From: Tachypleus tridentatus
Taxonomy: Eukaryota; Arthropoda; Merostomata; Xiphosura; Limulidae
Assembly (NCBI RefSeq): GCF_004210375.1
Contig: NC_134830.1
Coordinates: forward strand, 67,124,326 to 67,188,325
DNA length: 64,000 nucleotides
Direction: 5' to 3'
The notes beneath the pieces were generated by a model. The model did no database searches and was not told where the DNA came from. It was given only the letters and a program-made list of their open reading frames with translations. Shown one piece after another: positions 614 through 26,424 of this stretch. Position 1 is the first letter of the stretch, and the number at the start of each line of letters is the position of its first letter. The translations under genes were made by a program, and so were the position numbers.

Positions 614-642
614 CTGTTTCCTTCTCTCCAATTTTCTGGTAT
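614..642 (-). other. Candidate 29-nt microexon (unit 1)
   Basis: On the minus strand a pyrimidine-rich tract ending TTTTTCAG precedes 29 nt that end at a CAG|GTAC donor-like site. The same arrangement is preserved in unit 2 at 20616-20644. The surrounding sequence is nearly identical between units, so conservation is weak evidence. The length is not a multiple of three and I cannot join it to a gene. Confidence 0.15.
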
Positions 643-2218: not shown

Positions 2219-5200
2219 TTAACTGTCTTGAAGTTCTAGATCTAGTTCCAGATCTTCTATTTCAGCTTCAATCTCTCCTTTTCTAGCAATTTTTTCCAAC
2301 TGATCTTTTTCAGGGTTAGTAATTTCACCTGATTCTATTTTTTGCTCAAGTTTTACAATCTCCCTTAACTTCTTTTTTAAGTTTTTAATTCTCTTTGCTG
2401 GGTCACTGAATGTTTCTTGGCAGGCTTTATTCTCACTAGATTCAGTGTTCCTATCCAATCCAGTTTCACATATGTGAAGCTTGGTAACGTCTTCTGTTAA
2501 ATTTTGGTCAACAGTTTTAACTTCTTGTTTTTTTTTCTTCTTTTTCTTTTTACTTGATTTCGAAACATTAGGAGTTGGTGTTCCTGTCAGTCCTGGTATT
2601 TGATTTACGCTTGACTGAGCTTGTTGTGCTTTAGCTATATCTTCAGGATGAAGGCCTGGAGGATAAGCTGGTTTACTTTTGATCCACTGTTTTCCTTTGC
2701 TTTCATAACTACAATTAAATATAGAATTCAGTTTAATTTTTGTATTAAAATGCCTGTAAATTACTGTGTACAAAGTTTCAGGGAAACTTGAAACAGAGAA
2801 GACTTAGTAGGTTTAAGACATTTTAACACAAGTTTGAAAACAGAAAATAACTAGATTATCTCTGTGCATTTGGGTGGGTCAAAGTATGAATGTTACAACC
2901 TTTTTGTAGTAACATTAAATATATGTCAGTGAGTTTGGCATCAAAGTGTAATTTAAAATTCAAATTTATATATTATCTATGTTTTAAATTCAAAAGGAAA
3001 CATCTCCTATCACATCTGTCCTCTGACCTCTCCCATTCAGCTTCAATATTACAGATTATATAGTGCCTAATCAATTACCTATTGACAAGAAGAAATACAG
3101 AACCTCATATTTTATTTATTTGCTGTGATATCAATAAATATGTTAAATCCACCAGAAATGCTCCTATCATCTTTTTATACATCTGAAGCAATTTACTTAC
3201 TCACACTTACTTGCCTGGTGACATGTTTATTCTCAACAGAAACAAAGTATTGTAATACAGAGTAATCTTTAGCTTTTCTGTTAGGTTCCATGACAAAGCA
3301 AATATTTTGTAGGATAATATATAATAATATAATAATAAATTTATTAAGCAATAAATTAGACACAAAAAATCAAATAACAATATAAAACCATCAACAAAGA
3401 GTTAACTCATCCTGTGATGGTTAAACACATAATAAAGTAAAATCAAAACTTACAAAATCAAAATAAAGTTCCCAGAATATTATCATCAGTATTTAAGATC
3501 CATTGTTTTAAGTATTTCTTTTGATTAACACGATTAATAGAAGATCTTATACTATAAGGAATAAAATTATGAATACGAGGTGCCAAATAAAGATATTGAT
3601 GAAGTGTAACTGTTTTACATGGTATGGGTACATTAATTGGAAAAAAAGATTGAAGTTGTGTAAAATATGAAGTGACTTTAAAAGGCCTATTAAAAGAAAC
3701 ATGCATTGTAGATAAAGCTAAAAAATATAAATAAAATTTATCATATGAAAGAGGGGAGTTAAATTTACTGAAATCGGTATCAAGCCTATGGGTAAAAATA
3801 AGAGAGAAAACACTTTTTTGCAACTTGTGAATAGGAATTAAAAAAGTCTTATATGTGCCACCCCAAATTGAAATACAATATTGTAAGAAAGATTGAAAGA
3901 GAGCATAATATACACTTAACAAAATATGATAAGGAGCACAATGACTAAGTTCAAAAATTAGCATAGAACTATATTTTAATTTATTAACTAAAGAATTAAT
4001 ATGAAATTGCCAATTTAATTTTGATCTAAAATAATTCCTAAATATTTAACAGAGGAAACTTGAGTCAATGAAACAGTCCAAACTTTTTATGTACATATAA
4101 ATATTTGTGGATAAAGAAGAAACCTACAGGGGGACTTCATCTTGTGGAATATATCCTTCTTTTACTCTCCTTGCTTTTCGCCATGATCCATCAGTCCTCT
4201 GTGTAGCTGGGATATAAGTCCCTACAAAGCATTGCAAAATATGTAATCTGATTTGAAGAAGCCAAATGAGAAACAAAAGAGTAAATTAGAGTAACTTTAT
4301 TTTGTGCAGAAATGTTACACACAATTATTTAAATGTTACCACAGTACTTCACCATGCATTTTAAATATATTTTTTTTAATATTAGATCTAACAATTGTTT
4401 TTACTATGCAAAATAGTAAAGGCTCACATTTTCAACTCAAATCTCAAATAAAAACACATTGCTTCAAAAAGAACATCAAATTTTCACCTATGAAAAATAA
4501 CAAGTACAAATATTTTAGGGACTTTCATTCTTGCTGATTATTTGTGAAATAATTAATACTTCACATTGGTATATTAACAGATATGATATTTCAATTTAGC
4601 AAACAGACACTAAAGTTCATCAAAAATTTATTACAAGCCTTCAGATGAGACCATTGTGTTTTAAAGACAAACAATAAACTCTTTTTTTGTTTTATAATCT
4701 ACATATTATCCACTGGTTTTAAACAACTAAATGACACAACTACCAACTACTCAATTTTCCATACTACATCATCAAAATGATTTAATTTTATAGTGTATGA
4801 TAAATACTAAATTTGTAAGTTACTCTTCCTTTTTATTCAACTTATTTCCCCTCAAATGTAACAAAGAATATTATATCTAATTAATTAATATTTAAAGCAG
4901 TGTGTTTAATTTTATAAAATCAATTGTAGTAACCCATAAATTACTAGCAAAGTGATTTTTATCATATTACATTGTGATTTCTATATATATACACCTTTAT
5001 CCAAGACATTTATGTAAGGTTTAAAACATCCATTACTTTTTAATTTTTTGAGTTTAAAATTAAAAATCTGGTTATATTTCAGTTCTGCAAATTTGAAAAA
5101 TAAATGAACAATAAAAGAATTAATGAAAACATATATAACTGACACAAGCTGTCCTTTCTTCTTTTGCAATAATTTTAATGTATTTATGGTATTACAGGCC

Positions 5201-5944
5201 TGTTATTCCATAGAGAACACCTGTCATTCTGCAACATTCAAGTTGTATATAGTAGAGCAGTGTTACTTCTCTTAACCAGGTAAGAGGTTATAATAATGTA
5301 TTTGATGGTTTAAAGATACATTCTATCACTCTCTTTCCTCCATTATTTGATTATATTGTGGTACATCTTTAGGCTTTACAGCCAATGTCTGAGTGATAAA
5401 AAAATATCTGAACCGATACTCAAGATTTACAGCCATGTTCACAGCCTCAATGTTAAATTGTTATTAATATTATAAATTTAAAGACTCCATACTATTAATA
5501 CTATTATTAGTACTACTGCTACTAGCACTAAGGTCTAACAACGTATGTTCTAAAGGCTACCCTTTATAATTTTATTAAACTTACCTTGGAGTTCATTTAT
5601 TTCTATTACTACCACGTAAATAACATGATGAAGCAGTGTATTAATATCACTCCAATTAAATTTTAATTTTCATCATGGTATTAGTAAATAACTAAGCCGG
5701 CCTTACGATTATACCTATAACTTAGAAGTAGTTACAGAATAAGTTACATTATGATTTATGTTTATAAGCATTGTGTCGCAAACCCGATTTTATCAAATAC
5801 GATTAATCCATAATACCAATGGTCTTCATGCATTTGTAAAATTATCTCTTTTAGTAACAGATATATGTCATTTTTTTGTTTTTTCAAAACCGGCAAAAGT
5901 ATTCTCAACTCACCAGTTTCGTCTGTTACATATTGCGTTGCCAT
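2219..5944 (-). CDS. Pym: PYM copy 1, exon junction complex disassembly factor
   Basis: Three exons give 204 residues: exon 1 at 5914-5944, exon 2 at 4128-4221 and exon 3 at 2219-2708 including the TAA stop. Introns are GT–AG (donors GTGAGT and GTAGGT; acceptors TTTGTAG and TTGTAG) and the joints keep phase. The N-terminus ([11 protein letters not shown], then a [18 protein letters not shown] motif and DEVPLYES) is the Mago-binding segment of PYM/WIBG. A lysine run follows at about residues 95-102. The C-terminus has the PYM pattern of [17 protein letters not shown], then an acidic, coiled-coil-like [17 protein letters not shown]. Known PYM binds Mago-Y14 and the 40S subunit, and strips EJCs from translated mRNA in the cytoplasm. 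Human PYM1 is also about 204 residues. An AATAAA-type signal lies about 50 bases past the stop. Intron 2 contains a LINE fragment. Confidence 0.93.
3318..4066 (-). mobile_element. 5'-truncated LINE fragment in PYM copy 1 intron 2
   Basis: These 749 bases interrupt sequence that is continuous in unit 2 (near 23820-23836), so the insertion edges are visible. The minus strand encodes the end of a non-LTR reverse transcriptase. [10 protein letters not shown] motif near 4000-4050 leads, after a frameshift, into a 168-residue open frame at 3458-3964. That frame has the usual thumb-region pattern (a YGIxxWGxTYK-like segment here reading [13 protein letters not shown], then an LQK). The 3' end at low coordinates is TAA-rich. 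The endonuclease and catalytic RT core are absent, so it is dead on arrival. The clade is uncertain (Jockey/CR1-like). Confidence 0.8.
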
Positions 5945-6179
5945 TCTATGGCGACATGACCTATTTACATTACCGCATTTTTAGCGATTACTATTGACAA
6001 GAATACAATTAGTACAAAAGATATGTTCTATTATCTCAAAACTGCTTTGAAAATTTTTAAAATATTCACACAAATCTTCTTAAAAGATATTTATGCTAAA
6101 CATCCCTAATGTTTAGGAGGTAAACCGTTGTCCTTATAATGTGAACCTAGTACAAAGCATGGTTTCTTTCTTCCTCACT

Positions 6180-6290
6180 CCTTCCCCTACAGACTCGCAT
6201 CGCTAGAAATCGGGTTTCGATACCTGTAGTTGGCAGGACTCCAAAAGCCCATTGTGCAGCTTTGGGCCTAATTATAAAGAAGCATTAAAA
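6180..6290 (+). repeat. SINE family 2 copy (unit 1)
   Basis: A short tRNA-derived SINE with a box-B-like GGTTTCGATACC and the family body (TGGCAGGACTCCAAAAGCCCA in this copy, usually GGGCAGAGCACAGATAGCCC), then GTGCAGCTTTG. A matching diverged copy sits at the equivalent place in unit 2 (26735-26852), so the insertion predates the duplication. Confidence 0.6.
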
Positions 6291-7070
6291 AAAATTCTTG
6301 TAATGTTGAGACAGCTACATCTGCTATGTGATAATTAACTGGATCAAGTGATATTCACACTTCCATTTCTATCTTGTTTGTTTCCTTCTCTTTTTTTTTC
6401 CAAATTCAGTGAACATCCCAATACAGCAATATTATTTATTTATTCTAGTACAAATTAAATTTAATTATGGTTGAACAGTTCTATACATTTTGCTATATGT
6501 TACTGTTTTGCCTGCGTCATTATGTAAAGATGATGCAGATGCTATAACTGCTCCCTTCTTTTTATTGGTTTCGGAAGATGGTATTCGCCATCCTTACTTT
6601 TTTTGGAACGATTTTCTTTACTTGCTTACTTGATTTTTTTTCAGTGTTTCAACAGATATAGGAATGTTGTATTTATAATCAAGTTCGAAATACAATGACG
6701 TTCGAAGTGTAAAATTTATTGTTTATCCATTACTGACTAGTAATTCTTATTTCAACATGCACTTGAGCTTTTTAAAGGAATATCAAATTCCTGTAAAAAC
6801 CAACTTCAAGAGGTTACCATAACATCATTTACATTGGAATTATTATTTTTTATTACTACTAGTCACTAATAATACTTATGAAAATGAAAACTCTGTCCGA
6901 AACTACGTCACCACAGTGAAACAGGTTGACATCATTGCTTTGGTTTTTGAATTATCATGTAATACAAAAGAAGTGGATCAGAAGAACAAGAAATTCAAAC
7001 TTTTTAATATGATAGTTTCAAACAGTCCCAGAACCCGTGAGTCAGTTATTACATAAATGTTGTTATAAAA
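6290..7070. other. Upstream flank of PYM copy 1, no gene seen
   Basis: AT-rich non-coding sequence. Its value is in alignment: 6290-6420 matches 32945-33070 and 6690-6990 matches 43790-44060, linking unit 1 to distant islands of unit 2. No long open frame or RNA gene was found. Confidence 0.5.
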
Positions 7071-7376
7071 GGTTTGTTTTTTAATTTCGCGCAAAGCTAT
7101 AAAGAGCTATCTGCGCAAGCCGTCCCTAATTCAGCAGTGTAGGAATAGAGGTAAGGCAGCTAATAATCACCACCCTTCACACCAAACATGCTCACCTTCT
7201 CATCCGTGGGAGCGTTAAAATATTACTGTCAATTCCACTATTCGTTGGTAAAAGAGTAGCCGAAGAGTTGGTTGTGATGCCTAGCTGTTTCTCCTCTAGT
7301 CTAACATTCCCAAATTAGGAATGGCGAGCGCAGAAAGCCCTCGTGTAGCTTTCCGCACAAATTCAGGAAAAACAAA
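7071..7376. repeat. Two SINE family 1 pieces in inverted arrangement
   Basis: Positions 7071-7175 are the tail half of SINE family 1 on the minus strand (reversed TTTCGCGCAAAGCT, then GCCGTCCCTAATT). From 7176 to 7376 the sequence switches to the plus strand, running from the CACCAAACATGCTC body to the tail. The tRNA head is missing from both. The two pieces meet head to head and form an interrupted palindrome. Confidence 0.75.
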
Positions 7377-7429
7377 GTTACAAACGAGCCATACATACAT
7401 ACGAAGAGATTCCACTTGCCTGATAAAGG

Positions 7430-7703
7430 TTTGTTTGTTTGGGAATTTCGCACAAAGCTACTCGAGGGCTATCTGTGCTAGCCGTCCCTAATTTAGCAGT
7501 GTAAGACTAGAGGGAAGGCAGCTAGTCATCACCACCCACCGCCAACTCTTGGGCTACTCTTTTACCAACGAATAGTGGGATTGACCGTCACATTATAACG
7601 CCCCCACGGCTGGGAGGGCGAGCATGTTTAGCGCTACGCGGGCGCGAACCCGCGACCCTCAGATTACGAGTCGCACGCCTTACGCGCTAGGCCATGCCGG
7701 GCC
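7430..7703 (-). repeat. SINE family 1, full length, with 13-bp target duplication
   Basis: A complete minus-strand copy from the reversed AAAC tail to the reversed GGCCCGGCATGG tRNA head. It is flanked by perfect 13-bp direct repeats TGCCTGATAAAGG at 7417-7429 and 7704-7716, the signature of LINE-driven insertion. Perfect repeats and an intact head suggest a fairly young insertion. Confidence 0.92.
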
Positions 7704-9094
7704 TGCCTGATAAAGGAAGATTTGAATAAGAAATTTTATTTCACTTTTTCATTGCTAATCTTATAAATAGTAATTGTAATAAAAGACATACAAATAACAT
7801 TTAACCTTTTTTTTTTAGAAATAACGCAATGAAAAACTCAAGTGTCTTTACAAATTACACACGCCTGCAATAGTTTTATTGTTTCGATGAATCCGAAAAT
7901 GATACCAACTTTTCTTCACTACGTACAAAACGTCATATGTACTTTTACACAAGTGAATAATTTTCATTGAAATCGAGTCACATTTTACTTTGCTTAAAAT
8001 ATTGACAAAAACTGGTTATAAGTTCCTCTAGACCAATCGCAACGTAAAAGTCTTATCGATTGTTTGAGACACCACGAAAAACACATCGCTGGTATATAAA
8101 TGGTTAATAGCCACATGGTATGTCGCTTCTGGATAGTATTTGTTTGTACGTGCACTTTGACATTACTTTTTTTTTCGGTAATATTTATTCGTCACTATGG
8201 CAAAATGATGTTGCGTAAATGGATGGGTGAGTTTGGCGTTTTATGGCGCAAAGCAACTAGGCTATCTGCGTCAAACATCTGGTGAAAAGTTAAAAGTAAA
8301 AATATTAAAATTCGTAAAAAGAATCAAGGTAAAACAAAATAGGTTGAATTTTTGATTTAAAACTTAAACATACGAAATCCAATTTTATATCTAGTGTACA
8401 GCAATAAGAAAGAAATTACAGTAATACTAGTTTTAAAGAACATTCTGTAGCATAAGTTGAATGGCCATAATTCGCCAGGATGACTAACAGGTAAGTACAA
8501 ACATCAACGTTAGTCGCCTGAAGTTGGCCTTTCCAGTCCGGGTTTCGATTTATCCGACGTTACGGCCATTTTCAGAAAGTAACGCAATAGAAGTTATAAA
8601 AGACTTTCTGCAGTATAATTATAATTATTATAGCTCGGCAGGATGACTAACGGGTGAGTCCATACATCATTGTTAGTCACCTGAAGTTGGCCTTTCCAAT
8701 CCTTGTTTGACGTTACGGCCATTTTCGGATTTCACACCGAACTAGTTGTACTTCAAAAAGGAATAATGAAAAAGGTCTAATTTATGAATTAAAAACTAAG
8801 TGTTAAAAACGTCAATGACCTTTAAAAAAACTAAAAACATTTCTAAGATGGACAGTGTCACCCTCGCAGATGACACTGTCCAATGTTACAGATAAACCTT
8901 GGGACTAAACATGTTTAAAATGGTGCCGCCGTTGAGAGTCGTAACGACAGCAAGACAGTAAAATGTGGCTTATTATAACCTGAGTGCCACACAGACAACA
9001 TATTCGTGTATCAATCCCAGATAAAAGAAAATGACGAGTTAGAAAACTGTGACTAATGCGTAGTCTAATTAGGACAACTTCCTCTTTCCGATTC

Positions 9095-9950
9095 TCATGG
9101 AAACAAGACGCCCAAAGGGTGAGAACTGACGTAAAGCAATTCCAGGGCTAACATAGAGCAAAGTGAATCGATATAAATAGTACAGTTTGTGTACTGCATA
9201 GTTTCTATGTGATCCAGGGCAAGAGAAATGGCGTACAATTCGATAGTGAACACAGAAACTGTAGAGAGGATTCTTTGTGCAACAACCGAATCACGGCAAA
9301 CAATGGCAGAGTCCACAGAGTCATCTGATTTTGAACCATCGGTATAAATGGGAATGGAAGGATGGTTCGAAAGATGTTCGTCAAATAGAAGGATATGCTT
9401 CCAATCAGGAGTATCTGCCTTCTTCAGATGACTCAAAGAAAGATCACATTTGGAGATAGTGATTAGCCATGGTGGAATGGGCTGATCTGTGGATACCGCT
9501 ATGTCATCTAAATATAGACCGAATTCATCCAACTGCACCTGGAGACAAAGGCTAAAAGGAACAGTGGCAGACCATATATTATGAAAAAGTGTGGCCCACT
9601 GAAGAAGAAAAACACAACCCCATGTGGGATGCTGTAGTCCAGTTTTGATCGAATAAGGGAATGATAATTTTTTAGTGTGAAACATCGATCCGCACCTCAA
9701 GAGGTGGAAGAAAGGGCACGGAGGATGTTCAATGCCCTCGTACACTTGACACGTAGCTGCTTGATGTGTGAATAAAGGTCAGCTTACACTCAAATATAAG
9801 CATCAAGAATTTTGCCTCAGGAACAATGGGAAGCACAGCTTCACCAATATGAAGTTCAGGATCAGGGTGAATACCCCGTCGACGGCAAAAGTGCATGCAA
9901 ACAGTTTTGGAGAGGGAAAGGTTGAAACCATTTGCTTTGGTCCACGTCAA
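9095..9950 (-). pseudogene. LINE ORF2 part: RT palm end and RNase H
   Basis: The frame at 9729-9950 keeps RT motifs (TWTKANGFNLSLSKT, then VPEAKFL). The frame at 9095-9745 holds an RNase H-like core: IYTDGSKSDDSVDSA with the first Asp, ELYAISLALDHI with the Glu and IYIDSLCSMLAL with another Asp. This order is typical of Jockey/I-group LINEs that carry RNase H. The two frames are offset, showing a frameshift, and the tail beyond is split by further stops. Confidence 0.8.
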
Positions 9951-9981
9951 TAAATGATTGAGGGCAGTCTGTAGCTACCTC

Positions 9982-10430
9982 TCAATATACCTTATATCTG
10001 ACAATTGGCACGAGATGTGGAAGTCGTTGACAAAGAAACAATTTGCAACTCAGGGGTAGTTGTCCACTGAAGCCATTAATCTTTATAATGAAAAGTGTGA
10101 CACTCAAGACACAGCCATGAGGGACTCCAAGTTCCTGTGGGAAAGAATGGAAAAGTGTCGAACCCACACAGACCTCGAATCGCCGATTCATTAAAAAATG
10201 TTTAATAAAAATCGAGAAATTACCACCCAAACCATACGAGTGGAGGTCTCTCAAGATACCATACCTCCATGTTGTATCATAAGTTTTCTCAAGGTCAAAA
10301 ATACAGAAACAAGATGTTGTCGTTTGAGAAAGGTTTCCCTGATTGATGTTTCAAGTCAAATGAAGTGGTCCATGATGGAGCACTGTCTTCAGAACCCACA
10401 CTGAGTGGGAGAGAGGAGGTTATTCTTCTG
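9982..10430 (-). pseudogene. LINE ORF2 part: RT fingers and palm
   Basis: Frames here read QHLVSVFFDLEKTYDTTW, LRDLHSYGLGG, FLMNRRFEVCVG and LGVPHGCVLSVTLF, which are RT blocks 1-4 of Jockey-like elements. The catalytic box, read in a shifted frame near 10015-10030, is FVND, so the first Asp of the usual YVDD is Asn (AAC). At least two frameshifts split the region. Confidence 0.8.
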
Positions 10431-10439
10431 TTTGCAACC

Positions 10440-11642
10440 ACATTTTTTTCTTTATTGGATGAAGATCTGTCAGTCTCCATGGATCCTGCCCTGGATCCTG
10501 TAGGCAGGCCTCTGTCTGTGGACAAAGATTCCAATAACTGTGAATGAATAGTCAATTTAGTTTTGGGGCTGCAAAAGAGGATGACCCGATGAAACATTTG
10601 AACCTGAAGGAAGTGAAACTGGGCAGTCACTGGAAGGAGTGGTAGGGATAGAGATGGAAGTAGACATAGATGCATGAACTTTTTAATTATGGAAGGCACA
10701 GTGAAATGGAGTGCAGCAGCATACATCTGAGATAGAATTGGGGACAATAATTTCCTAGCCTCTGAGTAGGTGATGTTATTAGCAGTCTTTAAGCATTGCA
10801 CTCGTTTCTCTTCTACCCATTTAGGGCGATAAACAGAGTAAGAGGGGTGTAGGCCACTGCAGTTAACACACTGTGGTTCCAGATTGCACTTGTGTCATGG
10901 CCTTTAGCATCACAACGAGTCCATATCAAAGAACCATGACATTATGTTTGAGTGACCAAACTGCTGACTCTGGAAACATCTGAGAGGGTTAGGAATGTAA
11001 AACTGTATCTTGCAGTTCAGGTAATCTGCTTTGACTGTGGTAGGAGGATGAAGCAATGTAAATTATAATATCAGAACACTGGTAGGGTTTGTCTTTACGA
11101 GTGAAGTTTTGGCGTATTGTAGTAATGCCTTGGCTGGAGAAACCAGCGAGGATTTCCGACTCGGAATTGTTCTTTAAATCACTGTCAAATACAACTCCTC
11201 TGGAAGAATTCAAAGTTGCATTGGGAGTAACCTCAATGGGTATATCGCCAATGGCTTTTGATTTCAAGAGGAGTTTGATATGCTGTGGTGAAGATGTTTC
11301 CACCAAAATGTCTCCAGAGTGCAACTTCTTTACTGATTTTGTGAGCCAGCAAGCCTTTAATCCCTTCTGAATGAAAAATGGAGACATCTGCCTCAAGGAT
11401 TTCTCAGATAAGGAATAGAGAATCAGAAATTGAGGTGTAGAATCTAGCTGTAATATTGACTGTACAACAGAATCGTCCATGCATGGTCGTTTTCCAATGA
11501 TTTGTTTTTCAATTCTTTCCTTTGTATTTAATTTGTTAGAAAGAGGGGTATCTATAATAAAGCAGTTACATTTCAGTGCCCACTGACCCCACCCACCATG
11601 GAGCCCTATGAGGAGACGTATTACAGTGTCAAACAAAAACAC
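10440..11642 (-). pseudogene. LINE ORF1 gag-like remnant
   Basis: The 217-codon frame at 10989-11642 has the gag-like pattern RQMSPFFIQKGL, KSVKKLHSGDILVE and LNSSRGVVFDSDL that normally precedes zinc knuckles in Jockey-type ORF1. Downstream, in other frames (about 10800-10980), Cys/His spacing of a CCHC region survives (CFQSQQFGHS, later CVNCSGLHPSYS). It continues to PKWVEEKRVQCLK and NITYSEARKLL near 10740-10840. ORF1 proteins bind the LINE RNA. This copy is broken by several frameshifts. Confidence 0.75.
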
Positions 11643-12253
11643 TGCAGCAATGCCAGCATTTTGTGAACGCCATACCCAAACACCAGCATCAGATACAATG
11701 TCTACAACACCCGTTGAAAATATCCAACATTAGTACTTGGTTGACTAGCACTAGGAAGCCATTCATCTAGAGGAATTCAAGGCCAAAGTGGTGTGTTAGG
11801 GTTGGACCCCTCAACCACCAGGATCCTCTCCCCTCCTTCATGGGTCACCATGCATGGCAAACATGTGAATGGATGTTAAGATCCCAGAGGAAGTAAACTG
11901 AAAGAACAGAACCTTCCCTGGGAGGTCCCCTCACCTTGTGCAGTAATCCACACTGAGGGGTTGCATAAATAACCCAACCATGTTCTGTTATATTTGTGGT
12001 AAATGAAGAAAGAAAAACATTATAGAATTCGTAAAAAAAATGTATTACACATATTCTGAAATGACACTTGGGGCAAATCATAGGCTCTACACAAAGTTTG
12101 AACCATTTGTGTTGAAGAGTTGAGTCAATGACTAAAATCTAAGAAAATTATTTGCCTTTTTGAATTCTAGTGGTCTGACGTGAGCCTAGAAACCAAACAG
12201 ATAGCTACTGGTTTTGCTTTTGTAACATGCAAGGCCAAAACACTTGAAATGAA

Positions 12254-12850: not shown

Positions 12851-12959
12851 CAGTTTATTTGTTAAGCATAAAACTCCACACAGGAACAAAACCCAATTTT
12901 AAATGTTATAAGCTCACAGCCTTACTGCTGAGTCACCAGATGGTGGAAGCAGCAAATAG

Positions 12960-13990
12960 TAATAGTAAGACTGATTATGCATGTAGATTTGGATTTTGTG
13001 AATAGATGGATATAGAGATGACAAAATTAGATGATAAAAATACAAGCTGTACAAACTTCATGAGTTTTTAAATATTATTAAACACCCTTGCAAATGGGTT
13101 TTAATGAAATTAGTTCAATATTCACTATTTGGAAAAATCACATTTCTTAATTATGTTATCGTTTGAAAGTTACAAAATCATAGGGTATAATTTCTACAAA
13201 ATTAGGAAAGCAAGCTATTTGATAAATATTATTATTATACATCAGGTTTTAAATTTTATAAGTGAAAATATATTTGAAACAGAAAATTTATTTAATTTTG
13301 TATTTTAATATAATGAAAAAAATCACTTAAGACTGTAGTTAAAATTATTAGAAAAATTAGATTAATATTCATTATTTTATTTTCTATTGAAATCAACCAT
13401 CTAGTCACTCTAATGGCTTGGTGGTATGAAAGACTTAAAACACTGGGAACCGAATTAACACACCTGTAACTGGCAGAGAACAAATTATCCATTGCACAGC
13501 TTTGCATTTAATGACAATCAAACCGATCATTGAAATCAAATATAAAATTAGTGTATTTTTCTATTTCCAATATTTATCAAATTTGATTCCATTGTTTTTC
13601 TCAAATCTAGAAAATTTTGGGATTTTCCTGGGTAAAGAACATATTTCTTCCTGAACACACTTTTATAAATAATGTGAAATGTATTTTTATTATAATATAT
13701 ATTCAAGAACTTCATTTTGCTGTAAATACTTCATAATAATTACATTACCGAAACAAGAGAATACCTTTATTAATCAGCAATCGATGCTAATCCAGACTGA
13801 ACATTTTTAAACTTTAAAGCACTAAACATTTTAATTAAAAAACAGCCAAATAAAATAGCAGAAAAAGTACATGTACATTTATGGTTTCTAATAAAAAATT
13901 CCATACAATAGTATTAACATTCATTTCTGTTTACCATACATTAATAAAATAGTGTTTACAGTTGTAAATTGATTTCATTTCATTAAGTTT
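12960..13990. repeat. Unit 1 island matching 44570-45670
   Basis: About 1 kb of non-coding sequence aligns with 44570-45670 in the same orientation, with small indels. Both copies include a family-2 SINE relic (13421-13520 and 45008-45125) and shared unusual words such as AATCAGCAATCGATGCTAAT. This is the far end of the duplicated unit, and similarity stops near 14000 and 45680. Confidence 0.8.
13421..13520 (+). repeat. SINE family 2 relic shared by both units
   Basis: Degenerate copy with a GGCTTGGTGGTATGAAAG box-A-like part, a weak box B and the tail words GGCAGAGAACAAATTATCCA and TTGCACAGCTTTG. The same relic is at 45008-45125, so it is older than the duplication. Confidence 0.6.
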
Positions 13991-13999
13991 TATTCATTG

Positions 14000-16900
14000 C
14001 AACTTTGGATTGACCTGTTTATTATTTTTATGCATAGGGAAACATAAGAAAGAAAGAATGTTTTGAAAAATAAAGATATACATTAGGATAAATTGGATAT
14101 AGTAATTTGACTGTGTGCTATTCAGTGTTGACGAGAGTGCTGTGCTTTTCATTTGTCTATCATGCCGAGTTGCATTATAATTGTTTTTGTGTTTTTTGAA
14201 TCCCTATACAAGATGATGTCTTAAAAAAAATTGAGACTACTTTTTTGTACGATTTAAAATTGGAAAAAATGCAGCTAAGGCCTCTAAAACACCAATTTAG
14301 CCTTTGCACCCATAAAAGGTTATAGTGACAGTATGGTGGTCTGTAGAGGGAATTATCCATTACTTCTTTCTGCAACCAGGTTAAACAATTACAGCACAAT
14401 CTTACTGCCAACAAATTGATAAAATGCATTCAAAGTTAACTGCCAAACAGCCATCCTCAGTGAATAGGCATGGACTGATTCTGCTGCAAAATACCACCAA
14501 ATCCCATTCCTCACAAATCACCATTTCAAAGTTGAGAATTGAAATATGAAATTTTGGAGCATGCACCACACTCAACTGAGATATCTCCAACTGATTATCA
14601 CATTTTCCAGCACATTGAACTGTTTTTCCAAAACAAAACGTTTGAGAATCAGGAGACCATTTTTCAAAGCCTTTGAAGAGTTTATTGCATCTAAAACAAG
14701 GGAGTTTTATATGGGATATGTTCATTAGTATACTGTTGGTATAAAATTATAGCAGCAAATGGAACATATATTGATTAACAAAACTGGTGTTTATTAAATA
14801 TATGGCACTTTAAGTTTTACCTATACAATTGGCTATTTCATATGAAACAAACTAATATAATGTACTCCAACCTCTGTACAAGTTTTGAAAACCTAAGAAT
14901 ATTTATTTTAAAAACTTGATTATGACGTTGGAAAATTTAGAACACCATAATCAACTTATATTCTGGTAAATGAAATTAAATGATATTATAACCAGTAATT
15001 ACCCAGGAATTGGCAGTAGACAAGGCATAATGAATTCATTTAAGGTAAAAAAAAGCAACCTTCACATACCTGAATTACTGGCTTTACTTTCTTTTTTTCT
15101 TTTACTTACTTTAATTTTAAGAATTAAAACACACAGGTGGTTATTCTCTTGAATTAAATAATAACCTTTTACATTTAATGCAAAGCAGCTATTTAATTTT
15201 ACTGATCTTAATTTATGATTTGTGTAAATCGAAAGAATTTAGCAGCAAGTAGAGAAATGTGCATATTACATGCCCTTTAGGATATAATATACACACTTCA
15301 ATGAAAATAAACAATACTTTCATAAAAAATACAAACTAAAAAAATCGCTTCACTAACAATGGAAAACACTTTTGCAAAACCTTTTACTTAAAATACTTTA
15401 ACCTAAAGAAAAGTAATCAAACAAAATCAACATGAAAATTCACATGTATTTATTTTTATCATTGATGTAATTACTGAAAATGTATGAATATAACATAAAA
15501 AACTGCTCTGTAAATTCAGAGGTGCTGGTAACTTTCAATTTATTCTCAAATATAATCATACGTTATACAGTATATATGTTATTATTCAAAAAAACATTTT
15601 ATATTTTTGTTCCTTTATGAAATTTTTTTTATTACCTCATGAGTGAATTACTCAAGAAAACTAATGCATGGTAATGAGATGAGTAAAACTTACTTTCCTT
15701 TTCTGTATAGCTTCACATGGTGAACAAATATTATTCTAAGAAGGGGAACAGACTGAACTTGCATTCACCATACAAATTCTTTGGTGATTTTCACATATAA
15801 ATATAAATGCTTTGAAAAGGACAGGTCACTTAATGTTTTCCTAATAAAATTTACTAGTTTAAATTAAACTTTTTTTACCTTTTATGTCATATTCATGTGC
15901 AATTTGGTAGTTAACTTTGTTTTTTTTACACTAAATATTTGGACACCTAATGAAACAAATTTGTTACTTCTTTCAAAATCATCATACTTTCTTACCTTTT
16001 CAGCATGTTTATTTCAAAAATTTATGTGGATGTAAATTTAAAACATTATAACTTAAATCCTTATGATGAAAAATAAAAGTTACAAAGAGATACCATATTA
16101 ATCAAGAACACATTTCCTTGTATAATTATACACTTTTGGAACATACAATAGATATTTCGTTATTTAAAAAGATGACTTGCATAATTCTGAGCATATTTAT
16201 TCTTCCAGAACACAATTACGATTTACACTATTTGTTCATAATTAGTTTCACATTTAAATCTTAAACTAGTTTACAAACTTACTTTATCTATAAAAGATTC
16301 TCAAGTCCTGCACAAAATAGCAAGTTATTGAGCTCTTGTAGATCTGCATGAAAACCAAGTTCTTTTGTGGCAAACCAAAGTTTATATTTTTGTATACCAA
16401 AAATGTATCTATGATAACACTTACCCATCTCACTCTTTAGTTTGATCTTAATAAAAGGTTCTCTTCTTTACCCATCAAAGGACTGGTATGAATTCTACCT
16501 CACTTACTCCAGTCTTTGTACCACACTACTTCATCCCTAGTGATTTTAACCCTGTGACTCTCTCAACTTGAGACCTTTCTACCTGATCTTTATACAAGCT
16601 CTCCATTATTCTTGCATATTTTTTGAGACTAGCAAGAATATCAGACCCAAACATCAGTCACCGGACGTAGTAAGGGTTTGATAGTGTGAAAGGAGATAAG
16701 TATTATCTGAAATATATTTTTGGTAATAGGAAAATGTATACTTCCCAAACACCCCCATCCCTCACACTTTAGCTAGAATATCATGCTTATCAGGTGGAGA
16801 GGCCAGTGAGGGAAAGATCTACACAGAAAGTATCTGCATAGAAAAACAGGCATGCAAAATTGAGATACACTAAAACATGTCAGTGTGGGGTCTGCACTAC

Positions 16901-17745
16901 TTATGGAACAGGTATGCTCTGTGCCCAAATAAAGCAAAATCTAAATGTGGGTGGTAAAGGTCAACTGGTTACAGAGTTAATATTATTCATTCATGATATT
17001 GTCTAGCCCCCAACTACACAGATGTGGTTTCACATCTCACTGTTGGAATTATAGGGTTGTGGATGCGAGGTGTAGTGGCTAGGGTATGGGAGAATGCAGT
17101 ATGATATAACTGTATCATAGAAATATAAATATAAATGGAAACCATCCTGAAAGTTACAGGGAATTGTATCTCAAGCCACTGGAATTATGAAGAGAAGGTT
17201 AGCAACACCTAAGTGAACAAACCCTCACTCCAACCTTAAGATGCACAGAATGCAACAAATTGAACTCAGGATTATTGACCCAATTCACATCTCACTCATC
17301 CTAAAAAAACAAAGATCATTCTGCCTGGGATTACAAACCAAAATCTTACCTCCTCAACCTATTAGGCAAGACAACCCCTCCTGCTACTGAAATTATGAGT
17401 AGGATGTGGAACAAGTTCAACCAATAACTCAATTGATGTGATGCTCCACAGGTAGAATTATGAAGAATTGAAGGTTTACTTCCAATAATAATGGAATGTA
17501 AGAGAATGACCAAAAACAAGGGACAAGCTCACACAACTGCATTTTTGAATCAGAAACATGAAGAAACTCCCTTGTAGAATGGACTGGCTTCTCACCTTAT
17601 CTCCAGTAAAACCAGCCAGGGTTAAGGGTGGGAGGGTATCCAGCTTCACCCTCTTCTCTTTGAGTGGAATAAATAGCAGACAGAGACCTCTGTCCACCCC
17701 TCCAGTGACAAGAAACAAAGTGTAAAGACTCCTTTTCTCCCATAT
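14000..17745. other. Spacer between duplicated units, no gene recognised
   Basis: AT-rich sequence to about 16450, then less AT-rich sequence with decayed-repeat character. Open frames at 14175-14429 and 14402-14725 overlap, are short and show no domain, so I do not call them genes. No splice-supported exon series, RNA gene or intact transposon was found. Confidence 0.4.
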
Positions 17746-17749
17746 TTGA

Positions 17750-18335
17750 TTGATTGATTGATTTAGTGTTTTACGGCACAAAGCAGTTTGGCTATCTGCA
17801 CCAAAAGACCAGTAAGAAGGTAAAAATAAATTAAATGTAGTAAAATACATAAAAGGAAAACAAAACAGCATTGAAAAACAGAAAAAGCACAAAACCAATG
17901 TTGACACCTAGTCTACAATATTAAGAGAGAAAGCAGAGTAAGAGAAGTAGTAAAGGACTTTCTCTAGCAAAATGGTAATGATCATAACCCGCCAGGAAGA
18001 CTAACAGGTAAGTACAAGAACCACCGTTAGTCACCTGAAGTTGGCCTTTCCAGTCCTGGTTCCAGGTTATGTGTCATAACAGCCATTATCAAAAGGTAAA
18101 ATAATAAAAATTTTAAAAGACATATAGCAAAATCGTAATAATAATTAGCCAAATGTCTGGTAAAAAGGTAAAAGTAAAGTAAATGTAGTAAAATTCATAA
18201 AAGGAAATAAAGGTAAAAACAAAACAGCAATTAAAAACATAAAATGGCATAAAACCAATGTTGACATCCAGTCTACAAAGTTGTAAAGGACTTTCTGTAG
18301 CATAAAGGTAATAATCATGATCTGCCAGGATTCTC
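17750..18335 (-). repeat. Jockey-type LINE 3' UTR copy with internal duplication
   Basis: On the minus strand this ends in a (TCAA)n-type tail (TTGATTGATTGATT at 17748 on the plus strand). It matches the 3' part of the LINE at 8.2-8.75 kb: the CACAAAGCAGTTTGGCTATC-like end and the ACCTGAAGTTGGCC-type module reversed at about 18030-18055. A block of about 400 bp (AAATGTAGTAAAAT through CAAAACCAATGTTGACA) occurs twice, near 17835-17905 and 18180-18265. No coding part of the LINE remains. Confidence 0.65.
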
Positions 18336-18339
18336 CAAT

Positions 18340-20235
18340 AGTGTGTGAGGGAATCACAACAGAGAGTTGTACAGAATGATGCTCCAGAGATATTGTAATA
18401 GGTGAACCACTTTCCCTATTTTGAAAAGCAAACCAATTCCAATTTGTTCAAGTCAGGGATTAGCAGGGAAGGGCAAAGTCACTTTACACTTTACTCATGA
18501 TAGTCCATGAATGGTGGTCCAGTATTATGTGATATATGATATAGAACAACTGTTCAACACCCACAGAGTGCCAAGGCAGTCTTATGAAACACCCCATCTC
18601 AGGATTCATTACTACCAGGAACTTAGTTATTTGTCTAGTGGTAGATAGCACAGACTTGTAAAAGCATACCTAACCAGGCAACATTCACCACTGAGCATCA
18701 ATATAAGGAATACAATAGCACAAAAGAAACAAAGTTTCTTAACTTTTTCACAATCAAGTCAGGATATATAAAGTAAAATATCCATGAGGGCAGTCAAAAC
18801 TTCTCTTCTAAGGAGATTGCCAAGTCAGGTAAATAGTGTGATATATTGGTGTTAAGTGTGATCAATATTCAAGTCTGTATAATTTCCTTTAATGGGTGAC
18901 ACAACCGAGAAGGCAGGGGTACTGATATATGTCAAACTTAAGATAAGAACCTAAATATCTCCACTCTTAAAACTAAAGGCCAGAGTAAGCTATTCAAGGT
19001 GACAAATCCAACGTGTGAAAGTAACAGAAGACTAGCTGCATGATATCAGAGGATCTCAATGGTTAAATAACCAGGTAGGCATCTGCAATGTCGAGTTTTG
19101 TCACCATCCAGGTGAAAAAAGCTATTGAATGGCAAGAAATAACTCCACTGTAAACCAAGGAGACTAGAGGAAGTAACTGAAATGAGAAAGGCCAATATCA
19201 TGAACAATCATCCATGTTTTTTGTACTATAAATAGCCAAGAACAAAAAAAAAACACACTGAGAGTAAGCAATGCATTCTGTAACCTCTTTGTGCAGTAAA
19301 TCCTGGATGGTTTGTTTTCAAGTTGGAAGTAAGAGGGTCCTTGAGGAATGGGAAGCCAACAAGTATATTAGACAGAGAAAGAGATGTGAATTGAATGACC
19401 AACCGATCTGTGATGAATGTCTCCTATACTGACACAAACCCTAAGAGATTAGACTCCACTAGACCTGAGCTCCATAAGGTAGTTATTCATACCAAAATCT
19501 CTGAACAAGGATTCTTGCTGGTAAGGTCAAAATTGTTTTTAAGTCCCAGCGAATCATGGTGCCAATGTAGGAGATCTAGAAACATGAACAGGAGATACAG
19601 TAAACCATCACATCGAAGAATTTTGGGAGTTTGGAAGACAGTGTAGAAAATTAAAAACATAGACAGGCCACATCTAAACAAGATTCCATGGAGTCTGGGA
19701 TTATGGGAAACTGAGAATGATGAAGATGAACAATAATATCTTGTTGTGAAAGGGTGCAAGAGCTAAATGTCCATCTGAGGTTCATCATTAGCTGTCTGAG
19801 AAGTGAAAGGTGCTAAAAAAAAAGTATAAATTCTGACTAGTTGACTCTTAATCTCCCACAAACTTAGTATCAGAACCAAAACAAAAAAAAAATCAGACTG
19901 TATGTAATATCCTACCTCTCTGTATTTAAGGAACTGTATGTCATCTGCAGAAGGTACCTCCCCCCACCCTGATACCCAGATAATGTTAGGTTGTTAGGTG
20001 GTAGAGAAGGGGAATCAGGTAACTCTGATTTTAATCATAAAATAAAAAACAAAATACATATGAAACTAAAAACCACTAGGGGCAACATAGTAGTGTATAA
20101 AGACTGGAGCAAACAAGATGGAATTTGTACCAATGGTCAGAAGGAAAATAAAGAGAACCTTTCATCAGGAAAAAAAAAAAAAAAGCATGAGAGAAAGTGT
20201 GTTTTGAAATATCTGGTTGTTATACATGATGCCAT
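18340..20235. other. Unrecognised, probably decayed repeat sequence
   Basis: Base composition is less AT-rich than the flanks and stops occur in all frames every few dozen codons. Short frames at 19395-19646 and 19487-19759 overlap on opposite strands and look like chance. It may be an old transposon, but I cannot identify a class. Confidence 0.3.
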
Positions 20236-20615
20236 TAATACACCATATATTACTGTTAATATGCAGCACTGTACACTAATGGTGTTTTCATATATTGTAA
20301 ATTATTAATTGTAGCCACTATTAAGTACATCTTAAGAAACGATTATGTAAAGTCTGTATCACTTAATAACTGAAGAGTCATGGTTGCTGTTTAAAGGAAT
20401 ATTCTCTTCAGAGAAAACTGATTTGAAATTTTTTGAAGTTGTAATAAGATGTTTGAATATCTAACATGATTACTTGGTGATAAACCAGAGTACTTAAAAA
20501 GTACTTATAAAGAACAGTTCATACATATGATTCAGGTAAAAAGAAAGTAATACAATGAGAACCTCAGTATTTGATTCTTTTTCCAAACTAATTTTTAATA
20601 TTACAAAGTTTGTAC

Positions 20616-20644
20616 CTGTTTCCTTCTCTCCAATTTTCTGGTAT
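20616..20644 (-). other. Candidate 29-nt microexon (unit 2)
   Basis: Counterpart of 614-642 with the same acceptor-like and donor-like flanks. There is no evidence of transcription, and no partner exon was identified. Confidence 0.15.
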
Positions 20645-22719
20645 CTGAAAAAGACAAACTTTTAACATTATAATACCTGAATAAAATATACTGAGGGTTC
20701 ATCACACTTTATAAAAACTATTTCAAGTGATACTGCCCTTGGATTTCTAGCCCTTTCCAAACACTGTTGCTTCCTCCACTACTTTTTTTATGATCAACCT
20801 GATGGCATTACTTTCCAAAATGACATTTTTCATTTGTTTTAATGGTCAGCAAGGTCACCCTCAAATCATATCTATTAACAACTTTCCACAAGTCCTACAC
20901 ATAGGCTCTAAATACCATTTGACCACAAAAAACTCACTGGAGCTTAAAGTACCCTAAAGGGCTTGACAAATGTGGTTAAACAGGTTTCTGAGATGTTAGT
21001 TCCTCCAGCCACCTTTCTCATCAATTCATCTGCTGATTTGACATTGTGGCTGGAAGCTTGAAAACTTTTACTCATGAACTTTCTTCAACTTTAAATTCTT
21101 GTTTACTTTGTTAACAGTACTAGGAGTTATACCAAGCTACAGGATAATGCTATTTTGCAACAGAGGGTTCTCTTTCAAAATTATAGCTTTCACTTTGCTT
21201 AGGACTGCATTACTATGTGTTGGATTGAAGTGTCTGGAGGAAGAATTCCTACCTTAGGAGGTAATGCAGCATATTCCTGCAACCAAAATAGTACTCATGG
21301 TGGCACTGCACGTTCATACTGTTGAAAATGCACCATGAATCACATATGTGCTATGGCTTATACCTGCAACAACATACCACATTAAAAACATGCACATTAT
21401 TCTTATAAAGTGTGATTAAGCTTGCTCATCTACAAATAGCCTGAGACCAATACTTCTTTTACAATTTTTATTACCTCCTTTTGAAAGACCTTCCTATTAT
21501 AACAATAATACTTAGGCCAATTGAATGTTCTGATGGATCATACCAATGTTTCAGAACTTAATCACATTTAGTCATTAAATACCTGGCCTAATTATAATTA
21601 AAAATTATATTTGCTTGCACAATGCACAAGACATTTGTCTGCTATACAGTAATACTTTTCTATACATTAAAATCCCATTTTACTATGCCCTACACTACAT
21701 GCTAAACTGAATTTTATTAATGTAGCAAATTGCAATAACTGAATTTTTTTTACAACATAAAATGGAAAAAAATTAAAGTTAATTTTTTTTGTTGAATTTT
21801 CTTTATGATCAGTTATTTGAAGAAAACAAAACAATAATTTTAATTCTTTCACTGACATTGACACACATCTATGACCCACTCTAAAACAGTGCCATAGGAA
21901 TTTTGGATTTTATATATCTTCACAACATTAATCAGATTCAAGTTTTACATAAGCAATAAAATATTAAAACATTCTCCTTCTTCTGTGTTTATCATGTATC
22001 TAGAAATTAAGCTGGCATTGGAATAGATGTTACTTATAAATATGACAGTAAACAAGTTAAAAAAATTACCACCTGTGCAAATAAATTTGAAAGTAAAGGC
22101 ACTTATTATAAAGAAAAGGCTAATTCAACAAAACATACTCCTTTTGAAGTATAAAACCAATCACTACTGCTTACAAAGATGATCACTCCATCTCTAATTT
22201 TAACTTAAACCATGACAACCAATGACCTTCCTCAGTTTACTACTGTATCATACACTACTTGTTTGAAAATAGTCACTTATTTTTTAATATATCTATTAAA
22301 TTTTAGGAAGCTGGAATAAGTGTACATTTTTTAAATTAAAGTGTGTGCTGTCCACCTGATTCTGAAATTTTTTGTTGATGCTTGGCCACATATATAAAAA
22401 TAAAGTGAGTTGTTAGAATGCCATCATCATTTCTTTCACAGCTGATATAACTACAGCTTATTTTAAATTTAAATCATAAAACTAAAAAGTATTTATTATA
22501 TAGATTCACACAAAATATTAAGTCAAGCAGTGCTATCAAATCAGCCTGAGTAGAATCTTCATAACAATAATAGTAAAAACATCTTTCTATCCTGCTGTTA
22601 AAACCCTTCACATAGTGATTAATAGAAATTTTAACATTACTAACAGTATTACATCTTCCAGTTTTTTATTTATTTCTGTGCAAAATATTACCTGTTCATT
22701 GTTACACTGACTAAGTCAG

Positions 22720-25700
22720 TTAACTGTCTTGAAGTTCTAGATCTAGTTCCAGATCTTCTATTTCAGCTTCAATCTCTCCTTTTCTAGCAATTTTTTCCAA
22801 CTGATCTTTTTCAGGGTTAGTAATTTCACCTGATTCTATTTTTTGCTCAAGTTTTACAATCTCCCTTAACTTCTTTTTTAAGTTTTTAATTCTCTTTGCT
22901 GGGTCACTGAATGTTTCTTGGCAGGCTTTATTCTCACTAGATTCAGTGTTCCTATCCAATCCAGTTTCACATATGTGAAGCTTGGTAACGTCTTCTGTTA
23001 AATTTTGGTCAACAGTTTTAACTTCTTGTTTTTTTTTCTTCTTTTTCCTTTTACTTGATTTCGAAACATTAGGAGTTGGTGTTCCTGTCAGTCCTGGTAT
23101 TTGATTTACGCTTGACTGAGCTTGTTGTGCTTTAGCTATATCTTCAGGATGAAGGCCTGGAGGATAAGCTGGTTTACTTTTGATCCACTGTTTTCCTTTG
23201 CTTTCATAACTACAATTAAATATAGGAATTCAGTTTAATTTTTGTATTAAAATGCCTGTAAATTACTGTGTACAAAGTTTCAGCGAAATTTGAAACAGAG
23301 AAGACTTAGTAGGTTTAAGACATTTTAACACAAGTTTGAAAACAGAAAATAACTAGATTATCTCTGTGCATTTGGGTGGGTCAAAGTATGAATGTTACAA
23401 CCTTTTTTGTAGTAACATTAAATATATGTCAGTGAGTTTGGCATCAAAGTGTAATTTAAAATTCAAATTTATATATTATCTATGTTTTAAATTCAAAAGG
23501 AAACATCTCCTATCACATCTGTCCTCTGACCTCTCCCATTCAGCTTCAATATTACAGATTATATAGTGCCTAATCAATTACCTATTGACAAGAAGAAATA
23601 CAGAACCTCATATTTTATTTTTTTGCTGTGATATCAATAAATATGTTAAATCCACCAGAAATGCTCCTATCATCTTTTTATACATCTGAAGCAATTTACT
23701 TACTCACACTTACTTGCCTGGTGACATGTTTATTCTCAACAGAAACAAAGTATTGTAATACAGAGTAATCTTTAGCTTTTCTGTTAGGTTCCATGACAAA
23801 GCAAATATTTTGTAGGATAAAAGCTAAAAAATTAAAATGAAACAGTCCAAGCTTTTTATGTACATATAAATATTTGTGGATAAAGAAGAAACCTACAGGG
23901 GGACTTCATCTTGTGGAATATATCCTTCTTTTACTCTCCTTGCTTTTCGCCATGATCCATCAGTCCTCTGTGTAGCTGGGATATAAGTCCCTACAAAGCA
24001 TTGCAAAATATGTAATCTGATTTGAAGAAGCCAAATGAGAAACAAAAGAGTAAATTAGAGTAACTTTATTTTGTGCAGAAATGTTACACACAATTATTTA
24101 AACGTTACCACAGTACTTCACCATGCATTATAAATATATTTTTTTTAATATTAGATCTAACAATTGTTTTTACTATGTAAAATAGTAAAGGCTTACATTT
24201 TCAACTCAAATCTCAAATAAAAACACATTGCTTCAAAAAGAACATCAAATTTTCACCTATGAAAAATAACAAGTACAAATATTTTAGGGACTTTCATTCT
24301 TGCTGATTATTTGTGAAATAATTAATACTTCACATTGGTACATTAACAGATATGATGTTTCAATTTAGCAAACAGACACTAAAGTTCATCACACATTTTT
24401 ATGAACCTTCACAATGAGACTACTGTGTATTAATGACAAATGACAAACTCTTTTCATTTTATAATCTACATATTATCTATTGGTTTTAAAAATAATATCA
24501 TGAAAACCTGCTATTGAATACTGAATACAATTTTTGTTTACTGTTAAACTAAACGTTCTTATAAGCTTACTGAATAAATATTAAACTAAATTTTCCCAGT
24601 TCCTTTACAGAACATGTTAATACAAGATTCTACACCAATACTTCTTCCAAATATTTGTAACACTCATTTTACACAATTTTTCTTTAATAATCATTTCTGG
24701 TTATTTTTTACTTTTCATTTACTATTTGTTAAACTGTATGAAATTCAAGTAAATATTCATAAATAACCACTAAAAACTTTTTGTTTCAAAAAAGTTGCTA
24801 TGTTAGCACCACACAGTATTGAATTTGCAAACTTTTAAACTTGAAATATATTTAAATATCATAGAACATTCAATAAAAAATAAATCAAATATATATAGAA
24901 AGTTTGCTACTGATTACTTAACAATATAAGCTACCTAAATTCTATCACTGATCTATAATAATATTTTACATTTATAAATCATCTTACAAAATCTTTACCA
25001 GACACCTGTACATACTTCTGGCTGAGCTCAACCTGTGCTGGACAGCTTATTTAGGAACTTTTTTAAAACACTGAAGCACACTAGGACTAATCAATTACCT
25101 TTGTTTGTCAAAATAGTTTCAATGAATGATCTAAGAGCTACATGGAGAGCTCATTCATATCATTGTTCCTCAAAAACATCCTACTGTTATACACATACAG
25201 AAAAGAAGGGGGTTTACACTGATAAATCCTGTATAATTTAACATTCAATTAACACAATTTTTTATAATGAAGAAAAGCTTTTGTACATGTATTTCAGTAA
25301 AAAATTATCTCTGTATTTATTCGGCTTTAGAAAAATAAATGGCATAACTACCAACCACTTAGTTTTTCATAATCAAAATGACCTAATTATATGGTGTATG
25401 ATAAATAATAATTTTGAATTTACTTTTAGCTTTTATTCAACTTATTTCCCTTTGAATGTAAGAAAGAATATTTAATTAATTGACACTTTAAGTTGTTAGA
25501 CTAACTTGATAAAATTGACTGGATTAATTTGTCAAACACAAGCAATGTGATTTTTTTATTTATGCAAGGTCTGAAACATCCATTACCTTTAAATTGTTTT
25601 GTGTTTAAAATTATAAGATCAGGTTATAACCTAATACTGCAAATTTGAAAAATAAATGAACAATAAAAGTAAATAACAGATAAATTAAAAGAAAATACCT

Positions 25701-26424
25701 GACATAAGCTGTCCTTCCTCCATTTCAATAGTGTTAATGTTTTTATGGTATTCCAAGCCTGTTATTCTGCAACATTCAAGTTGTATATAGTAGAGCAGTG
25801 TTACTTCTCTTAACCATGTTACAGGTTATAACAATATATTAGGTGGTTTAAAGATATATTCTATCACTCTTTTCCTCCTTCATTAGGTTTTACAGACTTT
25901 GTTTGAATGGTAAAAGAAATATCTGAATCAACTGATACTCAAGATGTATAGTCACGTTCACAGTCTAAATGTTCAATTGTTATTAATATCATAAATTTAA
26001 AGACTATAATATTAATACTATTATTAGTACTACTACTACTAGGGTACAACAATAATTACTAACAACATAGATTCTAAAGTATTACTTTTATAATTTTATT
26101 ACACTTGGCTTACAGTTCATTTATTTCTATTACTACCCTGTATACAGTATGGTGAAGCAACGTAAAAATATCACTCAACTTAGCTTTAACTCTTATCATG
26201 GTATTAATAAATAAGCCGGCTTTATGGTCATACACCTAACACTAGTAACGCACTAAGAGTGTAAGCTGTATTATAATTTGTGATTATAAGCATAACGCCC
26301 GAAACCCGATTTTGTAAAATAACCCTAAATTATTTATTTTAGTAATAGAAATATTTATTTTTTATCAAAATCGGAAAAATATTTTCAACTCACCGCTTTC
26401 GTCTGTCACATATGGTGCTGCCAT
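22720..26424 (-). CDS. Pym: PYM copy 2, exon junction complex disassembly factor
   Basis: Exons at 26394-26424, 23897-23990 and 22720-23209 have exactly the same lengths (31, 94 and 490), phases and splice signals as copy 1, and also give 204 residues. Exon 1 encodes [11 protein letters not shown] instead of [11 protein letters not shown], with 7 of 31 bases different. Exon 2 is identical. Exon 3 has one base change, giving Lys-to-Arg at residue 96 in the lysine run. Everything needed for function is intact: Mago-binding N-terminus, basic stretch and C-terminal charged helix. Family function is as for copy 1 (Mago-Y14 binding and ribosome-linked EJC removal). Intron 2 lacks the LINE found in copy 1. 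Whether both copies are expressed cannot be told from sequence. Confidence 0.92.

Follow-up and report, generated by a model that had tools for sequence, protein, structure and literature searches.

Tandem PYM genes of Tachypleus tridentatus with a divergence mosaic that points to interlocus gene conversion

Within a 64,000-nucleotide stretch of the genome of the horseshoe crab Tachypleus tridentatus (assembly GCF_004210375.1, contig NC_134830.1, positions 67,124,326 to 67,188,325 of the forward strand; hereafter the window), two intact PYM genes, PYM-A and PYM-B, lie on the same strand in two copies of a duplicated unit. Outside two tracts the units are 11-32% diverged per block, with a mean of about 20%, whereas within the tracts, the larger of which covers exons 2 and 3 of PYM, they are nearly identical. 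Judged from the sequence, an old tandem duplication followed by interlocus gene conversion over the tracts is very probably the best explanation for this mosaic. The same history had been proposed in a first-pass annotation, and it gains support here from the mosaic itself, from the diverged flanks and from the background divergence in the left extension of the units (538 of 2709 aligned columns in six blocks, 13.9% to 27.6% per block).

The PYM pair and its duplicated unit

Both genes are encoded on the minus strand with start codons 20,480 bases apart, in agreement with the two complete, same-strand genes about 20 kb apart that had been annotated. Each has three exons, which join into a single open frame of 204 codons with GT and AG at both introns:

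5914-5944, minus strand: PYM-A exon 1; carries the start codon (5944); lies outside the putatively converted tract and differs from PYM-B at 6 of 31 bases
4128-4221, minus strand: PYM-A exon 2; encodes the Mago-binding motif; 0 of 94 bases differ from PYM-B
2219-2708, minus strand: PYM-A exon 3; includes the stop codon; 1 of 490 bases differs from PYM-B
26394-26424, minus strand: PYM-B exon 1, from the rebuilt gene model
23897-23990, minus strand: PYM-B exon 2, from the rebuilt gene model
22720-23209, minus strand: PYM-B exon 3, from the rebuilt gene model

Recounting returned the annotated single difference in the 584 bases of exons 2 and 3, but six rather than seven in exon 1. The predicted proteins differ at four of 204 residues (T3A, Q4P, T10S and K96R), the first three of which are encoded by exon 1 and lie N-terminal to the Mago-binding stretch. 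The Mago-bind domain (PF09282) is found at residues 12-36 of both copies, scoring 47.6 and 47.8 bits where the curated cut-off is 20.6. When PYM-A alone was searched against known structures, residues 4-56, including this domain, aligned with chain C of PDB 1rk8, the PYM of the solved PYM-Mago-Y14 complex (E=3e-19), while residues 58-198 gave a weak, composition-biased match to eIF2A (8dys_A, E=4e-4) that is best over the last 45 residues or so. PYM-A resembles the PYM family also in this weakly matching, eIF2A-like C-terminus; what differs is that PYM occurs here as a tandem pair. In a genome search in which 40 of 566 candidates were scored, three of the 42 matches fell on the two PYM places.

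Upstream of both copies (5946-5957 and 26426-26437, minus strand) stands the sequence ATG-TCG-CCA-TAG, which ends one base before the main ATG and is kept in both within a 5' flank of about 24% divergence. Either a very small upstream frame that allows re-initiation or a piece of a promoter element could account for it.

A 170-Mb contig of an assembly of 2.17 Gb and 205 contigs contains the window, and the extent of the unit was determined by blastn of the window together with 60 kb of left and 30 kb of right flank from the same contig (154 kb in total). Window coordinates are continued leftward as negative numbers, and no strand is assigned to the units:

1-6284: in-window part of duplicated unit A, by blastn; the unit begins 7347 bases left of the window
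14853-26850: duplicated unit B; similarity outside dispersed repeats stops near 26593

On the left, unit A from -7347 to -3202 pairs with unit B at 14853-20249. The homology of 240-6290 to 20240-26850, as drawn in the first-pass annotation, is real, but its left end is the edge of a transposon (see below), and the unit reaches about 7.3 kb further left and is about twice as long. Without this transposon, unit A measures about 10 kb, and unit B measures 12.0 kb. At the right end, if dispersed repeats are set aside, the units are similar up to about 6124 in unit A and 26593 in unit B; from there to 6284 and 26850 the match stays in register, much as annotated (6290 and 26850), but it runs within a repeat that is found elsewhere too, and 6187-6284 matches unit B only inside this dispersed repeat (31 of 98 columns differ).

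Frames of at least 35 amino acids in the left part of the unit, compared between A (-7400 to -3200) and B (14800 to 20300) as a possible second gene, gave only protein matches of 50 residues or fewer. The frames at 1024-1440 and 3458-4045 contain no Pfam domain at E 0.1, and Rfam gave no match at gathering scores. The left part of the unit also holds an inverted repeat of 65-74% identity, which occurs at 16391-16613 and 20069-20226 and again 3.4 kb left of the window, and which was seen both within unit B and when A was compared with B.

The divergence mosaic and its explanations

The units were compared over six colinear pieces taken from BLAST hits, which comprise 4849 gap-free columns, 488 of them different. 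These counts exclude 1341-1519 (a local tandem repeat), 1807-1813, 3318-4066 and 6125-6186 of unit A, as well as 21338-21344, 21623-22315, 23821-23835, 24491-25331 and 26594-26751 of unit B; the final piece, 6187-6284, is included although it lies inside the dispersed repeat. Divergence along the alignment is not uniform, contrary to what the first-pass annotation had named as the observation that would speak against conversion: a two-state model reaches a log-likelihood of -1343, compared with -1583 for a one-state model. Its two low-divergence tracts are embedded in segments of 16-22% divergence and are given here, without strand, together with the stretches that border the second:

527-930: candidate converted tract 1 of unit A; partner 20529-20932; contains no PYM exon; 5 of 404 columns differ; no indels
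20529-20932: candidate converted tract 1 of unit B; model partner of A 527-930
1891-4619: candidate converted tract 2 of unit A; partner 22391-24388; 18 of 1980 columns differ; three one-base indels; the long interspersed nuclear element (LINE) described below is excluded
22391-24388: candidate converted tract 2 of unit B; model partner of A 1891-4619
21623-22315: stretch of 693 bases in unit B only; 77 bases beyond the left edge of tract 2
24491-25322: stretch of 832 bases in unit B only; 102 bases beyond the right edge of tract 2

A three-state model (log-likelihood -1330) places the tracts at 528-929 and 1904-4620 and splits the remainder into patches of 13% and 29%. The near-identical stretches annotated at 520-1010 and 1815-4620 hence both exist, with narrower edges, and the second does match the other unit, except for the LINE at 3318-4066, which unit B lacks. 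Identical runs are longer than chance allows, as a test of the kind suggested earlier revealed: the longest spans 369 columns, a length reached in none of 10,000 shuffles (maximum 143), and seven runs have a corrected P < 1e-4 in a two-sequence test in the style of GENECONV, not the GENECONV program itself.

Non-coding sequence shares this mosaic, as had been noticed. The left flank differs at 48 of 276 columns, and between the tracts the counts are 51/404 (931-1340), 61/275 (1520-1806) and 8/75 (1814-1890). Tract 2 contains the 3' flank (7/328), exon 3, intron 2 (3/609 and 1/61), exon 2 and the last 398 bases of intron 1, and beyond it the 5' flank differs at 40 of 167 and 31 of 98 columns, the latter in the dispersed repeat. 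Non-coding divergence is at the same level in tract 2 (17/1396) and tract 1 (5/404; P=1.0), and each tract is flanked on both sides by homologous, diverged sequence in register. The strongest single argument comes from intron 1, which differs at 6 of 398 columns inside tract 2 and at 220 of 1139 outside it (P=1e-23), because the jump to 19% divergence at 4620 occurs where coding constraint does not change.

Elsewhere in intron 1, 5201-5275 of unit A (partner 25760-25813) shows no difference in 54 columns amid 20% divergence and is a low run in the two-state model; it may be an element under constraint or the trace of a conversion over a very small stretch.

We propose that a segment of about 10-12 kb with a whole PYM gene was duplicated in tandem and in the same orientation long ago, and that the copies drifted to a difference of about 20% across most of the unit. 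Non-reciprocal recombination would then have copied two tracts, some 0.4 kb and 2.0 kb long, from one unit to the other, once or several times, before a LINE inserted into intron 2 of unit A. The outcome would be two intact genes whose promoters and first exons evolve separately.

Repeated conversion with a shrinking reach has close to an even chance of being the correct form of this history. Divergence inside tract 2 is graded, with 5 of 1407 differences in the core (2178-4333) and 13 of 573 at the edges, a contrast that 44 of 2000 shuffles equalled, and non-coding columns alone give 4/823 and 13/573 (P=0.005, for boundaries picked post hoc), which hints at more than one conversion. In three comparisons (P=0.0004-0.002) the shoulder at 931-1340 is also less diverged, at 12.6% against 19-22%, a low value that uneven rates may explain. 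A single late conversion, possibly a patchy one that produced both tracts, at a time when the copies already differed by about 20%, is a serious possibility as well, if one we would place somewhat short of even. Equal non-coding divergence of the two tracts speaks for it, as does the fact that the shoulder is matched by a tract-free block at 13.9%, and tract 2 sits between two large unit-B-only stretches, as might a heteroduplex halted by heterology; it looks as if the non-matching DNA just beyond its edges had limited the exchange. Against a single event stand the core of tract 2, colder than its edges, a pattern that is itself post hoc, and the usual inefficiency of exchange between copies that differ by 20%. 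Diverged introns may hinder conversion, according to the paper that describes the Caenorhabditis elegans col-12/col-13 pair (PMC3966223).

Several points weigh against conversion as such. The comparison covers the two units of a single genome, in which either unit may have been the donor, in one event or several. Constraint may be an alternative cause of the similarity in tract 1. The background is also uneven: the block of the left extension at 13.9% (101/726) is distant from the tracts and much like the shoulder, which is therefore weak evidence for an older conversion, and the division of tract 2 into core and edges was chosen after inspection of the data.

Other explanations fare considerably worse. 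Same-strand tandem copies permit unequal exchange, and unequal crossing-over between tandem arrays, yielding hybrid units, or a recent partial re-duplication that put a fresh copy in place could in principle be considered; however, a single crossover leaves one junction and a changed number of units, whereas here the diverged homology continues in register on both sides of the tracts and a search of both strands of the 154 kb at E 1e-8 turned up no third unit, which makes this alternative very unlikely. An assembly artefact, in which two alleles were laid out as a tandem pair or one unit supplied the fill for a gap in the other, appears slightly less probable still. The tracts differ by about 1%, a value of the order of heterozygosity, yet flanks that are about 20% diverged and carry many indels are not alleles, and the haplotype alternative raised in the first-pass annotation accordingly does not fit the unit outside the tracts. 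A wrong fill, in turn, would be identical and would have the LINE in both units or in neither; we observe 23 substitutions, three small indels and the LINE difference, and both units are on the one 170-Mb contig. Least probable of all is purifying selection alone, for although exons 2 and 3 change less than the non-coding sequence of the tract (1/584 vs 17/1396, P=0.03), within the tract the 3' flank and introns match almost as closely as the exons do, the same intron is 19% diverged from 4620 onward and coding exon 1 differs as much as non-coding flank. The split of intron 1 at the tract edge is thus a feature on which selection on exons and tandem-placed haplotypes both fail.

Transposons within unit A and other repeats of the window

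Two insertions distinguish unit A from unit B:

-3201 to 238 (1-238 in the window), no strand assigned: DNA transposon of 3440 bp; unit A only, by blastn, with an empty site in unit B
3318-4066, minus strand: LINE of 749 bp, 5'-truncated; in intron 2 of PYM-A, inside tract 2; reverse-transcriptase-like C-terminal frame

The larger insertion, which we take to be a Tc1/mariner-like DNA transposon, starts with CAGTCTGTGAAAAAAG and ends with CTTTTTTCCCCACTG, giving near-perfect inverted ends of the form CAGT...ACTG, and has TA on both sides where the site in unit B has a single TA. Its edge is the reason why the unit seemed to start near 239-240 of the window.

The LINE is missing from its site in unit B, which carries 17 other bases that unit A lacks. 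In the genome search introduced above, with 40 of 566 candidates scored, 39 of the 42 matches were to this LINE, 38 of them at 97-99% and one, a 100-base piece, at 96%; the genome holds 38 or more other matches at 97-99%, and the family was probably active recently. Six copies elsewhere share 2.0-3.6 kb with each other at about 98-99% and extend past the 5' end of the copy in the window, so that the latter must be truncated. Compared with the majority of the seven copies, the window LINE has five differences in 721 columns, although the six were drawn from the best matches and the family may be older than they imply, while the tracts have 22 differences in 1800 non-coding columns, or 0.4-0.9% per lineage. 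Given that the LINE lies inside tract 2 and in unit A only, its insertion is most likely later than the conversion and of similar age. If, however, tract 2 arose from separate conversions to the left and to the right of the LINE, the insertion could be the older.

Elsewhere the window holds other repeats, among them a family of short interspersed nuclear elements (SINEs), presumably tRNA-derived and similar in appearance to a SINE of horseshoe crabs, with copies at about 78-98% identity:

7429-7703, 27424-27716, 29668-29933, 30677-30858, 34376-34882, 35571-35880, 36970-37273: SINE copies, from repeat comparison
41407-41692, 45934-46225, 52520-52801, 54340-54618, 59082-59282, 61605-62178: further SINE copies, from repeat comparison
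39722-40696, minus strand: Tc1/mariner-like transposase; unbroken 324-amino-acid frame that encodes a DDE_3 and a winged-helix domain
42797-43459, minus strand: frame containing the Pfam domain DUF4371, a domain of hAT-type transposons
43445-43601: tandem repeat of a 39-bp unit, four times; overlaps the DUF4371 frame
12966-13986 and 44564-45612: 1-kb repeat pair of about 82-86% identity; outside the matches between PYM units A and B

A tRNA-Leu called by ARAGORN at 59089-59173 falls inside the SINE copy at 59082-59282. The SINE pattern was sought in viral contigs, and none was found there.

Function of the pair and comparison with known systems

In other species, PYM binds Y14-Mago and dissociates exon junction complexes (EJCs), according to PMC4072592, which also describes how over-expression of fly PYM strips EJCs from oskar mRNA and disrupts oskar localisation, and that flies with a single functional copy of y14 or of mago cannot do without PYM. 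The two copies described here would most likely be two sources of the same EJC-disassembly protein, with a changed dose or site of expression rather than a new function. Since the Mago-bind domain and the frame are intact in both, and the differences lie in exon 1, the promoter region and the 5' flank, the copies are likely to differ in how much protein they supply or in where they are expressed. A more far-reaching reading, that selection keeps the PYM bodies alike by repeated conversion while promoters and first exons may diverge freely, with one dose-sensitive protein under two promoters and conversion into exon 1 or the promoter selected against, seems unlikely to us, albeit less so than the alternatives to conversion. 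If both copies are expressed, they would provide a natural two-promoter test of PYM dosage. The conversion history proposed here would also have a practical consequence: trees or ages based on this animal's PYM coding sequences would make the duplication look very recent, though the unit as a whole is about 20% diverged.

In the one literature library searched, no paper combined PYM and gene conversion, and among its 14 papers on PYM, the exon junction complex, paralogs and duplication, a duplicated animal PYM was not the subject of any title or abstract opening. The terms 'pym' and 'gene conversion' are both absent from the main text of one horseshoe crab genome paper (PMC7815833). Relatives of PYM were also sought in viral contigs, where 600 stretches fit the pattern and tblastn confirmed none.

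Converted tandem pairs with diverged flanks have already been published, and the PYM pair is a further, clean example, offering a statistically strong case of conversion that would have covered part of a gene, introns included, and stopped within an intron. In C. elegans, col-12 and col-13 form an old tandem pair shaped by gene conversion, with 99.5% identity in reading frame and intron and extremely dissimilar flanks, as reported in PMC3966223. They share with the PYM pair the old tandem arrangement, the similar bodies and the diverged flanks; the case of col-12/col-13 is backed by orthologues from two other species, whereas in the PYM pair exon 1 lies outside the tract. Among arthropods, the paralogues GOT1p1/GOT1p2 and GOT1Sd/GOT1Sr of Tigriopus californicus likewise display a mosaic of high and low divergence that PMC3728101 ascribes to gene conversion; mosquito vitellogenin genes also came up in a search for such cases (PMC2875236). 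In the copepod, several populations show several events and the transfer of variants, largely in exons, while the PYM pair is known from one genome and its introns appear to have been converted too.

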